DNA from: Methanopyrus sp. SNP6
Lineage (GTDB): Archaea; JAADCQ01; Methanopyri; Methanopyrales; Methanopyraceae
Direction of reading: 5' to 3'
Length of the DNA stretch: 64,000 bases
NCBI RefSeq assembly: GCF_002201895.1
Contig: NZ_CP019436.1
Coordinates: 137,456-201,455, forward strand
Numbering within the stretch: position 1 is the first letter of the stretch; each line of letters starts with the position of its first letter. Shown piece by piece: positions 55,555 through 60,438 of this stretch. The translations under genes were made by a program, and so were the position numbers. Under the pieces are notes generated by a model. The model saw only the letters and a program-made list of their open reading frames with translations, did not search any database and was not told the origin of the DNA.

Positions 55555-56649
55555 TCAGCCGCTCCTCCTCAGCTTGTCGCAGAAGTCCTCTGCCATCGCC
55601 AAGATAACACCGACTGGGGGTTTACCCAACGGCTCGGGCAATACGTTAGCATCCACGACGTAAACGTTGTCGTATCCCTCCAGCGCGTACCTGTTGTCGA
55701 CTCTATCGGACAACGTTCCACCGGGATGTGCGCCCGAAGGCTCCGTGACGGCGCGTACTCTACCCCCCATCCTTGAGATGATTTCGCCCGCCACCGCGCA
55801 CCCTTCAGCGAAAAGCTCTATCTCTCGGACGCTGATTGGTTTCTCCCCGCTGATGACGTCGCCCGAGAGTTCGTCCGCAATTTTCACCATGATCGAGTAT
55901 TTGCCCTCATAAGCCGAAGTTCGATGTGGAGACAAGATGTACTCACCCATGTCGACGATTATTGGCATTTGAATGCCGGGTTCCGCCTCCAGGTCGGACA
56001 CGACGTGGATGTAAGCGTCCACGAACAGCGGACCGTCTGCGTCTATTCCGCTACGCTCCAGGAGCCGGGGTGTGCCGGGACAACCCGCGCACAATACAAC
56101 AATGTCGTCGGTTTCAAGTTCTACTGTCTGGGATCTAAGTACGATAGCGGCCGCTTTACCTCCAGAAAACTCAAATCGAATGCACTCGTCTCTCAGTACG
56201 CTAACTCCTTCAGGCAGCTCGTCCTGTGGAACCCACTTCGCATTTCTCGGACACTCTAAGCATTCTCCACACCCATCACACAGATCAAAATGAACGGATT
56301 TAGGCATATGCTCTGGTTCAAGTCCGACGTCCTCAGCGGCCTCTTCGAACTCAATATCGAGGTTTGACATGACCGAGTCAGGTGTTCTTCGTACCTCGCA
56401 CGTCATGTCGCGGAGAACTCGCTCAAATGGCCTCCGGAGGCCCTCAGGGCCCCAAAACCAGAAGTTACCCATCGAGTACCTGGCGGAGCCACCGAGCCCC
56501 TCTCCGTAGTAAACCCTATAATGCCCGAAGCGCTCCGACTGCAGTCTGTTCTCGGGGTGGGTAATCACGGTAACGTCGTATCCCATCTCATTAACTCGCC
56601 GCGCTACCCAACATCCCGAAGGGCCTGCGCCCACGATATAGACCTTCAA
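55555..56649 (-). CDS. GMC-type FAD oxidoreductase with Fe-S-like cysteine motif
   Basis: A 364-residue flavoprotein. The N-terminal dinucleotide fold is VYIVGAGPSGCWVARRVNEM; C-terminal HPGGTLSDRVDNRYALEG and VVDANVLPEPLGKPPVGVIL are typical of GMC oxidoreductases. Between them, CDGCGECLECPRNAK (near residue 125) supplies four cysteines that may bind an iron-sulfur cluster, allowing electron transfer instead of direct oxygen use. It is intact although both neighbours are decayed. Substrate unknown. TTG 56649. Confidence 0.75.
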   Translation of the reverse strand: MKVYIVGAGPSGCWVARRVNEMGYDVTVITHPENRLQSERFGHYRVYYGEGLGGSARYSMGNFWFWGPEGLRRPFERVLRDMTCEVRRTPDSVMSNLDIEFEEAAEDVGLEPEHMPKSVHFDLCDGCGECLECPRNAKWVPQDELPEGVSVLRDECIRFEFSGGKAAAIVLRSQTVELETDDIVVLCAGCPGTPRLLERSGIDADGPLFVDAYIHVVSDLEAEPGIQMPIIVDMGEYILSPHRTSAYEGKYSIMVKIADELSGDVISGEKPISVREIELFAEGCAVAGEIISRMGGRVRAVTEPSGAHPGGTLSDRVDNRYALEGYDNVYVVDANVLPEPLGKPPVGVILAMAEDFCDKLRRSG

Positions 56650-57520: not shown

Positions 57521-59755
57521 GTGAAGAGACGTATCAACGTCGCGATCGCCGGTCACGTAGACCATGGTAAATCCTCGCTGCTCGAGAGCATCACCGGGGA
57601 GTTTCCTGACAAAGAGGAGTTCGAGCTCAGCCGCGGTATCACTGCGGTCATGAAGGTGATACCGACGGAATGGAAAGGCGTAGAGATACGTTTCATCGAC
57701 ACGCCGGGACACTCGGACTTCAGGGAGGAGGTGGGTAAAGCGCTGTTAGTGTCGGACGGCTTAGTGCTCGTCGTGGCGGCCGACGACGGCGTGCAAGCTA
57801 GGACGGAAGTCATCATCGAGGAGGCGAAGGAGCTCGGGCTGCCAGTGGTCCTAGCGGTAAACAAGATGGACAAGGAAGGGGCGGATTTCGAGCGTGTAGT
57901 CAGGGAGGTCAAAGAACGAGGGCTCGAACCCGTGGCCGCCGTCCCCACGTCGGCCAAAACGGGTGAGGGAATCGAGGACTTACTGGACGCTATCGTGGAA
58001 CACATCGAACCGCGCGGGTGGGGAGACCCGGACGAGGAGACGGCTTTCCTCGTCGTCGACGTCGGAGAGCGGGAAGGACTCGGTTCGGTAGCTACCGGAG
58101 TGGTGCGTGCGGGTACCCTGAAACCTGGGGATGAACTCCGATACGAGGGAGAGGTCTATAGGGTTCGGGCCCTCCTCTCCCCGGACGAGAAACGAATGCA
58201 AGAAGCTCAGCCGGGTGACGTAGTACTGGTCGCGATGGACCGTGCGCCGGAGACAGGAATCCTTCTTACGGAAACAGGAGGGTACAGGGTCGAGAACCCC
58301 GAGGACGTGCGCCCTTGCGTCCGGTACACTGTCGAGGTAGACGACTTGAGGAAAGCCCGTGATATTCTCGAAGACGTAGAAAGGAGGAACCTCGGGGTCG
58401 AAACCGAGATCATCGATGAACGCCGCATTAAGATCTCGTGTCTCGGTGACGTACAATTCGACAAGATCCGCTCGGAGCTCGAGGGAGCGGGAATTCAGGT
58501 AGAGGTTACGTCCAGAGAGTTCGAGGGGGTGAAGACCGTCGGTGGAAGGGCGGTGGGTCGCTCCGGTCCGGTCGAGGTCGAGGTGCTCCCAAGAGCCTCT
58601 GAAGGCGTTCGGGTGTTCAAGCGGGGCAAGGATCGCGCCACCACGAAGGAGATTACAACGGTCCACCTAGTCGCGGAGGAACTCGGACTGGACGGACTCG
58701 TCGTGAACATACTCTCCGAGGGCGAATCCCCTCCCGAAGCTCTAGCGGATGCTATCGCGGCGGCGATTGAAGAGGTCGGGATCTTCGAACTGTACCCGAT
58801 CGAGAACGTACTTATTGAGGTAGACAACGTCGGGAAGGCAGCTTCCCTGGTGTACAAGCACGAGGGGCAAGTCATCGAATCGGACGAGTCTTCGATCAAG
58901 GCGATAGTGCCGGCGCCGCGGCTTAACGAGCTCGTGAGCGATCTCATGACGGAGACGTCGGGACGGGCGAGGATACGACTGATCTCGTCCGCAGGTGCGG
59001 GTGGCCCGATACTATCCGTGGATCCGGGCGAGGTGAACTTTGGGATCGCGTACATCCCCAGAAGAGGTCCTTGCGACGTCACCTCCGTCAAGCTAACCGG
59101 GCACACCCGTGACGCCAAGGTGGAAGAGCTGAGGCGTACACTGAAGATGTTCTTAGCGGACCGAGAAGAACCGAACCTCGTGTACGTCGGTAACGGACCA
59201 GGTCACGATGTGGCTGTCGAAGCCGTAGTGGATGTGCTTCCTGAGGTCGAGATAGTGTTAGTCGACGAGCGTGAGACGACGAAGGAAGCCGTGTACAGGT
59301 TATCGTCGGGCAAGCTCGAGAACGTTCGATCCAGGGACCTCCGGGATCACGGAGTAGCGGCGCTCGCGATCGCACGTCGCGGACAACTCGGTCGTAGGGT
59401 GAAGAAGCGCGTGGATCGTGAGACGGTCAGACGAGCCGTCGTCACGGCCTTCGGAGGTGGCTCTCGAAGGTTTGGCGATTACTCCAGACTACCGATACGC
59501 AATCCGGAGGAGTTGGAAGAAGGGACGATGCTACAAGTGAAGGATCCGAACGCAATCACGACTGGGCTGTCGAAAGGCGAAGTAGTCGTGTTCCACGGTT
59601 GGAGGGAGGACGGAGGGATGATCGCGTCGACGTTGACCGGAAACCGGGTGATCATCAAGCCGCGAGACGGTCGGTCGCTGAAGAACCCGCGTCGGTTCTT
59701 CGAGGTGTTCAGGCCGGTGAAGCCGAAACGAGGCTCGCAGAAAGGAGAGGGGTGA
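57521..59755 (+). CDS. EF-G-like translational GTPase fused to a YqgF/RuvX-like nuclease domain
   Basis: A 744-residue protein. Residues 1-160 form a translational GTPase domain: G1 AGHVDHGKSS (10-19), G3 DTPGHSDF, G4 NKMD, G5 SAKTGEG. A domain-II barrel follows, then regions resembling EF-G domains III (IKISCLGDVQFDKIRSELEG), IV, and V (LYPIENVLIEVDNVGKAASL). Residues ~495-625 look like an RNase-H-fold YqgF/RuvX domain: LSVDPGEVNFGIA with Asp501, VYVGNGPGH, VDERETTKEA with Glu583, and RDHGVAALAIA with Asp609. A basic C-terminal domain ends it. GTG 57521 follows GAGGGG by 7 bases. I know no described protein with this architecture. Confidence 0.75.
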   Translation: MKRRINVAIAGHVDHGKSSLLESITGEFPDKEEFELSRGITAVMKVIPTEWKGVEIRFIDTPGHSDFREEVGKALLVSDGLVLVVAADDGVQARTEVIIEEAKELGLPVVLAVNKMDKEGADFERVVREVKERGLEPVAAVPTSAKTGEGIEDLLDAIVEHIEPRGWGDPDEETAFLVVDVGEREGLGSVATGVVRAGTLKPGDELRYEGEVYRVRALLSPDEKRMQEAQPGDVVLVAMDRAPETGILLTETGGYRVENPEDVRPCVRYTVEVDDLRKARDILEDVERRNLGVETEIIDERRIKISCLGDVQFDKIRSELEGAGIQVEVTSREFEGVKTVGGRAVGRSGPVEVEVLPRASEGVRVFKRGKDRATTKEITTVHLVAEELGLDGLVVNILSEGESPPEALADAIAAAIEEVGIFELYPIENVLIEVDNVGKAASLVYKHEGQVIESDESSIKAIVPAPRLNELVSDLMTETSGRARIRLISSAGAGGPILSVDPGEVNFGIAYIPRRGPCDVTSVKLTGHTRDAKVEELRRTLKMFLADREEPNLVYVGNGPGHDVAVEAVVDVLPEVEIVLVDERETTKEAVYRLSSGKLENVRSRDLRDHGVAALAIARRGQLGRRVKKRVDRETVRRAVVTAFGGGSRRFGDYSRLPIRNPEELEEGTMLQVKDPNAITTGLSKGEVVVFHGWREDGGMIASTLTGNRVIIKPRDGRSLKNPRRFFEVFRPVKPKRGSQKGEG

Positions 59756-60438
59756 GCCGAAGTGTTGGCGTTGTTCCCCTGACGCACCCGTTCACGATCA
59801 CCCCTGAAGACTTCCGGAGCGTTTGGCGTTGGATCAAGATGTCGGGTATTATTCGAGTGTACACCGACAGCGAGTCGTTAGCAGAGCTGCTGAAACGGCC
59901 ACTACTCAGGGTCGTCCGCTCCTCACTCCGACCACCTACGGTCTCGTGGGCGGGTCCTTGCCCGGAAGAGGACCTTCGAAGAGCCGGTGCCGAGGTCGAG
60001 ATGAACGAATATCGGCCGTTTGAAGCCTCGAACGTCCTCGCACTGTGTACACGAACGTTTGCGCTCTTCCTGAAGGGCGTCCGGGGAAGTACTGTAGGGT
60101 TGGTAGGGTTCGGGGACCTCGACGATCTCCACCGTTACCTGGTCGAACTGGGATACCCGCGCACGTTCAAAGCGACGTCCACGCTCATGTTACGTCGTCG
60201 GGGATTAGAGGTGGACGAATTGTGGAAATTGTTCCCGGCATGGGTGGGGGACGAGGTCGAACCGTTGCTCCGAGAGACACTCAATTCCAACGTCGCGGAG
60301 GACCTCCTGGAGGAGGCGAGGTCTCTGACGTCCTCACTGGGACCGAGAGTCCGAGACCTCGAGACCACACCCACCGGACGCTTGCTACTGGCATCCTCTC
60401 AGACCGTGTGGGTCGTGAGGGGGGCGCTGAGCGGATGA
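59752..60438 (+). CDS. Unknown protein coupled to the GTPase-nuclease
   Basis: A 228-residue protein from GTG 59752, overlapping the previous stop (GTGA). It contains HPFTITPEDFRSVWRWIKMS, a GSTVGLVGFGDLDDLHRYLV segment that could be a small Rossmann-like strand-loop-helix, and a C-terminal AEDLLEEARSLTSSLGPRVR. No family is recognised. Its coupling suggests it partners the GTPase. Confidence 0.6.
   Translation: MSRSVGVVPLTHPFTITPEDFRSVWRWIKMSGIIRVYTDSESLAELLKRPLLRVVRSSLRPPTVSWAGPCPEEDLRRAGAEVEMNEYRPFEASNVLALCTRTFALFLKGVRGSTVGLVGFGDLDDLHRYLVELGYPRTFKATSTLMLRRRGLEVDELWKLFPAWVGDEVEPLLRETLNSNVAEDLLEEARSLTSSLGPRVRDLETTPTGRLLLASSQTVWVVRGALSG

Follow-up and report, generated by a model that had tools for sequence, protein, structure and literature searches.

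A translational GTPase joined to a nuclease-like domain

The window (the whole 64,000-nucleotide stretch of DNA that was analysed) belongs to a genome made up of one contig of 1.42 Mb, whose relatives are recorded as Methanopyri/Euryarchaeota. Within it, one forward-strand gene encodes a protein in which the body of an EF-G-like translational GTPase (trGTPase) is followed by a domain resembling the YqgF/RuvX nucleases and by a further C-terminal domain. The gene and its parts are listed below.

57521..59755, + strand: trGTPase-YqgF fusion gene, 744 aa; single open frame with GTG start and TGA stop; full-length orthologues
57521..58012, + strand: domain I (G domain), residues 1-164; Pfam GTP_EFTU 4.8e-41; G1-G5 intact; short, without a G' insert
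58013..58291, + strand: domain II, beta barrel, residues 165-257; EF-G_D2 7.9e-8 over residues 185-246
58292..58555, + strand: domain III, residues 258-345; predicted beta-alpha-beta-beta-alpha-beta; weak EF-2 domain III matches
58556..58792, + strand: domain IV-like region, residues 346-424; predicted three strands-helix-strand-helix; Foldseek alignment along EF-G/EF-2
58793..58996, + strand: domain V, residues 425-492; EFG_C 0.0024; dN/dS 0.02 in two close pairs
58997..59398, + strand: YqgF/RuvX-like RNase H domain, residues 493-626; RuvX 5.1e-5; hhalign P 84.6%; Foldseek matches to RNase H-fold proteins
59021..59023, + strand: Asp501 in strand 1 (LSVDPG); corresponds to D9 of E. coli YqgF; invariant; aligned by hhalign
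59267..59269, + strand: Glu583, closing strand 5 (VDERETTKEA); corresponds to E96 of E. coli YqgF; invariant, 20/20
59345..59347, + strand: Asp609 in the C-terminal helix (RDHGVAALA); corresponds to D122 of E. coli YqgF; invariant, 20/20
59399..59752, + strand: C-terminal domain, residues 627-744; predicted short helix and strand-rich segment; matches no family

The fusion occurs in Methanopyri and in part of a probable Asgard phylum

A preliminary description of this DNA, made from the sequence, had suggested a profile search for the same fusion in other archaea. Full-length orthologues were present in all five Methanopyri genomes examined, sharing 71 to 96% identity with the copy in the window. 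Searching with a profile of the C-terminal half first picked up homologues in two genomes outside Methanopyri; in the archaeal phylum to which these two belong, a refined profile found the fusion in 17 of 228 genomes, 16 of these 17 in one family. The frames in this phylum are mostly 760 to 796 aa long, have the same architecture, and share approximately 31 to 35% identity with the Methanopyri members. Its genomes encode several actins each, the best of those tested scoring approximately 540 bits against eukaryotic actins and 630 against "HC1 actin"; because of these eukaryote-like actins, we infer that the phylum is Asgard (Promethearchaeota).

Across a 394-genome archaeal sample, the fusion family was confined to Methanopyri and the Asgard phylum. 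In the archaeal samples searched, a profile of domains III to V matched strongly only in fusion proteins, and neither half turned up unfused; those weaker domain III to V matches that we read proved to be EF-2 or EF-2-like proteins and were rejected as unfused copies. The preliminary description knew of no protein of this kind, and we likewise found no description of the fusion in the open-access literature searched; an earlier remark in the Methanopyrus kandleri genome paper is possible.

Several sequences adjoining the family were seen in the Asgard genomes. One genome of the main carrier family (G095) encodes a stand-alone protein of 285 aa (L100:1288-2145, - strand) that weakly matches the nuclease profile; it carries the motifs FSIDPGTKHIG and YLIDESKSS, its third acid is seemingly replaced (TKHEVSALIL), and it could be related to the nuclease half, either in decayed form or as a separate protein. 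In another Asgard family, an EF-2-like protein of 661 aa (L118:319-2304, + strand), possibly an EF-2 paralogue, has a domain III that weakly matches the fusion family. One contig (G115; L042:1-20, L073) opens inside the fusion gene, so that the N-terminus is missing, with a translated adapter-like MCIRDS that looks like a sequencing-adapter leftover of assembly.

The GTPase half is provisionally placed outside the named EF2-family groups

The N-terminal two thirds had been read as an EF-G-like GTPase with motifs G1 to G5 and segments like domains II to V, and the open frame, Pfam, secondary structure prediction and Foldseek all bore this out. The motifs GHVDHGKSS, RGIT, DTPGH, NKMD and TSAK correspond to G1 through G5, and GTP_EFTU matched residues 2 to 163 of the fusion protein, as well as 13 of 14 Asgard members, the remaining one being cut at a contig edge. 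Invariant throughout the family are the Gly, Lys and Ser of G1, the Thr of G2, G3 including the catalytic His64 of DTPGH (20 of 20 members in the alignment columns), the KMD of G4 and the Ser of G5.

Domains III and V follow domain II, as judged from secondary structure, Foldseek and individually weak matches to EFG_C, EFG_III and EF-2. Each is predicted to be beta-alpha-beta-beta-alpha-beta, and the pattern of domain IV is short, the region being smaller than its EF-G counterpart. For domain V, EFG_C gave E = 0.015 with the full-length protein and 0.0024 when the segment was searched alone; for domain III, weak matches were obtained to an EF-2 of known structure (PDB 6q2d, E = 0.048), to EFG_III (0.054) and to EF-2-like frames. 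AlphaFold, given a shallow alignment of four sequences, produced low-confidence models (pLDDT 57.7 for the full length and 63.8 for the C-terminal part). In Foldseek, this low-confidence full-length model aligned along EF-G, EF-2 and LepA, with E values down to 3e-25 and poor TM-scores.

To place the GTPase, we built a tree from 276 columns covering the G domain and domain II, with references from E. coli and one archaeon. The fusion-family GTPases were monophyletic and sister to a group of EF2, EF-G, TypA, LepA and RF3 (UFB 98-100 in this small tree), a position that is provisional given the small sampling and long branch. No NCBIfam translation-factor family came near its cut-off for the fusion protein (IF-2, 150.9 versus 424.4 bits; lepA, 110.4 versus 533.9 bits), and by both the tree and the NCBIfam subfamily scores the family falls inside no named EF2-family subfamily. 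A published census recognizes seven archaeal trGTPase subfamilies, with aSelBL as the sole archaeal addition to the ancestral set, and mentions no nuclease (PMC4342817). The fusion protein does not fit aSelBL: its G motifs are intact, and in the tree it groups with the EF2 family and not with SelB. Because in the tree the GTPase branches as the sister of all EF2-family members together, it is, as far as its sequence places it, a trGTPase subfamily missing from that census.

The nuclease half carries a YqgF-type active site

For the region after domain V, the preliminary description had proposed a YqgF-type RNase H domain with an acidic triad, and the positions it gave, Asp501, Glu583 and Asp609, are correct. 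The Pfam RuvX family (PF03652) matched the full-length protein with E = 0.002 and, when the domain was searched alone, with E = 5.1e-5. As its score of 24.1 bits is below the curated Pfam cut-off of 29.2, we file the domain as YqgF-like and not as RuvX. The same family matched all four Methanopyri members tested and 9 of 14 Asgard members (best, 3e-6). When compared by hhalign with three RuvX proteins of known structure, the domain aligned with a probability of 84.6% (E = 6.8e-6) and with the three acids in register. Its score of 39.3 compares with a maximum of 19.2 for 60 column-shuffled RuvX templates and with approximately 11 for the other domains of the fusion protein. A single E. coli RuvC sequence also scored (P 52%); the E. 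coli YqgF and RuvC comparison sequences agree with PDB entries 1nmn and 1hjr. Since both RuvX and RuvC score, the domain belongs to the RuvC/YqgF group, with the active site of YqgF.

That active site was read over 21 aligned members, 20 of them with a complete nuclease domain. Asp501, Glu583 and Asp609 are invariant in all 20, within the family motifs L..DPG, [V/I][D/N]E..TTKEA and DH..AA..IA.R, so that the conservation expected of homologues extends to those at 31 to 35% identity. Strand 4 (L/K-V-Y/F-V-G, residues 551-557) has no acid. In YqgF and Tex, a carboxylate has been shifted from beta4 to beta5 (PMC3985635; PMC9601230), and the acid pattern, as aligned here, is this YqgF arrangement; the RuvC arrangement is ruled out because beta4 lacks an acid. 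In Deinococcus radiodurans YqgF, D22, E106 and D122 are required for RNase activity (PMC9601230).

The order of elements predicted for residues 497 to 622 in the low-confidence AlphaFold model (three strands, helix, strand, helix, strand, helices) is that of RNase H. The top Foldseek matches of the C-terminal model, also of low confidence, were all RNase H-fold proteins (integrases, RuvC and UvrC), with poor TM-scores. The fold comparison that had been suggested for this part thus does not contradict the assignment; we regard the structure matches as supportive, not decisive.

Selection was measured as Nei-Gojobori dN/dS over four pairs, in two of which, the distant ones, dS is saturated. The nuclease domain gave values of approximately 0.04 to 0.22, comparable with those of the other domains, and purifying selection acts on all domains of the fusion protein.

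The C-terminal domain (residues 627-744) accompanies the fusion in both Methanopyri and Asgard members. It had no convincing family in Pfam or the PDB, the C-terminal half had no match in NCBIfam, and a profile of the nuclease and C-terminal domains found nothing significant among PDB sequences. A weak match of the C-terminal domain to a ribosomal L10e-like protein was taken as chance.

Gene neighborhoods

Downstream of the fusion gene in Methanopyrus lie, in order, a gene of 228 aa without a Pfam family, a dCTP deaminase-like gene, a metallo-beta-lactamase and an MFS transporter. The GTG start of the 228-aa gene (59752-60438, + strand) overlaps the TGA of the fusion gene, and this GTGA overlap suggests that the two are translationally coupled. 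In two other Methanopyri (L015 and L016), the deaminase directly follows the fusion gene, the 228-aa gene being missing between them. On the other side, a divergent GMC/FAD-type oxidoreductase gene (55555-56649, - strand) adjoins the fusion gene and is kept there in other Methanopyri. The Asgard neighborhoods resemble one another and are unlike those of Methanopyri; judged by eye from sequence, they hold FAD enzymes, a phosphatase-like protein and a radical SAM protein. At neither the Methanopyrus nor the Asgard loci did we recognize ribosomal genes beside the fusion gene, or rescue or stress genes near it. Two further leads were dropped: a PADLOC match to LeoA, which would have pointed to defense, reflects only the shared G domain, and phage records held no match that would indicate a phage origin.

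A possible GTP-gated RNase of the ribosome

Sequence comparison establishes the fusion, its conservation, and its complete GTPase and nuclease motifs. From here, we infer ribosome docking, RNA cleavage and GTP gating, and think it probable, though well short of certain, that the protein is an undescribed archaeal enzyme whose EF-G-like GTPase docks on the ribosome while its YqgF-type domain cuts RNA under the control of GTP. In such an enzyme, the EF-G-like body would dock in its GTP form at the ribosomal factor-binding site. By analogy with the additional domains that follow domain V in LepA and TypA, docking would put the nuclease in the intersubunit or A-site region, where with Mn or Mg it could cut exposed RNA, either the pre-rRNA of an immature particle or the mRNA or tRNA of a stalled one. 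GTP hydrolysis, through His64, would then free the factor and so limit cleavage to the right ribosomal state.

The C-terminal domains of LepA and TypA enter the A-site region, and in E. coli annotation LepA is a 30S biogenesis factor and TypA a 50S assembly factor. Pre-16S rRNA is reportedly processed by E. coli YqgF solely when it is part of the 70S ribosome (PMC9601230), a restriction that fits a nuclease tethered to a ribosome-docking factor. Given this 70S-bound processing and the assembly roles of LepA and TypA, a GTP-gated, ribosome-bound RNase is the simplest reading, and we rank ribosome maturation slightly above quality control as its task. The more specific idea of the preliminary description, trimming of the 16S 3' end, is weakened, because Nob1, the nuclease that has been implicated in maturing the 3' end of archaeal 16S rRNA (PMC8339473), was found in all seven genomes tested; it is unlikely that the fusion replaces it. 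The patchy distribution also argues against an essential, universal rRNA step. Counting against the model as a whole are the nonribosomal neighborhoods, the sub-cut-off RuvX match and the low confidence of the AlphaFold models.

The strongest rival, which we hold possible but clearly less likely than the enzyme just described, is a quality-control or stress factor whose GTPase senses stalled or hibernating ribosomes and whose nuclease cuts mRNA or tRNA in the A-site region and not pre-rRNA. A patchy distribution is more readily understood for an accessory factor of this sort than for an enzyme at the core of maturation, Nob1 already serves the 16S 3' end, and the A site is where the EF2-family relatives act; yet no rescue or stress genes were recognized nearby, and the YqgF relatives are tied to rRNA maturation (PMC9601230, PMC12641178). 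It is also conceivable, if rather improbable, that the YqgF-like domain is a dead RNA-binding module as in Tex/Spt6 and the protein a GTP-dependent remodeling or assembly factor. Tex retains the fold without the third carboxylate, the activity of YqgF itself has been doubted (PMC3985635), and the likeness to RuvX is seen at sub-threshold scores only. Unlike in Tex, however, the three acids and their TTKEA and DH..AA surroundings are invariant across 31 to 35% identity, and later work found that the RNase activity of YqgF requires these residues (PMC9601230).

We give very little weight to a DNA enzyme, that is, a junction nuclease resembling RuvC/RuvX for which the GTPase would serve as motor or regulator. 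Some RuvX proteins resolve Holliday junctions (Mycobacterium tuberculosis RuvX, cited in PMC9601230), the strand-1 motif LSVDPG is RuvC-like, E. coli RuvC was among the sequences that scored in hhalign, and a dCTP deaminase gene lies nearby; but beta4 lacks the acid that RuvC needs, two thirds of the protein are a translation-factor body, and no DNA-binding domain was recognized. That the fusion is an artefact, whether of misassembly or of two neighboring genes read through by chance, is already refuted by these data: it is a single frame in five Methanopyri genomes and in 16 Asgard frames (two cut at contig ends) from independent assemblies, and the halves never occur apart in the genomes searched.

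Relation to known systems

A GTP-gated RNase of this kind, if real, would let one polypeptide tie the hydrolysis of GTP to the cutting of RNA on the ribosome, and would offer a simple system for asking how the 70S-dependent bacterial YqgF picks its substrate. Its occurrence in Asgard would give it a bearing on the translation apparatus of the archaea most closely related to eukaryotes. For the fullest form of the proposal, an eighth archaeal trGTPase subfamily that predates the EF2-family splits, is common to Methanopyri and Asgard, and is a GTP-gated RNase acting on the ribosome itself, we see the case as evenly poised.

The fusion protein shares with the EF2 family (EF-G/aEF2, LepA/EF4, TypA/BipA, RF3) the order I-II-III-(IV)-V, motifs G1 to G5 and the catalytic His, and with LepA and TypA in particular a short G domain that lacks G' and additional sequence C-terminal to domain V. 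It differs in branching outside all of them, in scoring far under the family cut-offs, in its short domain IV and in its nuclease. With YqgF/RuvX it has in common the RNase H order, the Asp of strand 1, the Glu closing strand 5 (DExxTT) and the Asp of the last helix before AA; it departs from them in its sub-cut-off Pfam score, a GPG loop after strand 4, a constant union with a GTPase and a new C-terminal domain, whereas the known YqgF proteins are small stand-alone enzymes. Tex/Spt6 likewise hold a YqgF-like fold, with a carboxylate at beta5, inside a larger nucleic acid factor, but Tex is missing the third carboxylate (PMC3985635), and all three are invariant here. What is new is thus the combination of two known domain types, as a trGTPase subfamily for which no description was found. 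Like aSelBL, the fusion family is archaeal, patchy and of unknown function; aSelBL, however, is SelB derived, its G domain is disrupted and M. kandleri has no aSelBL (PMC3037878), whereas the fusion protein is EF2-like with an intact G domain and would represent a further archaeal addition beyond aSelBL.
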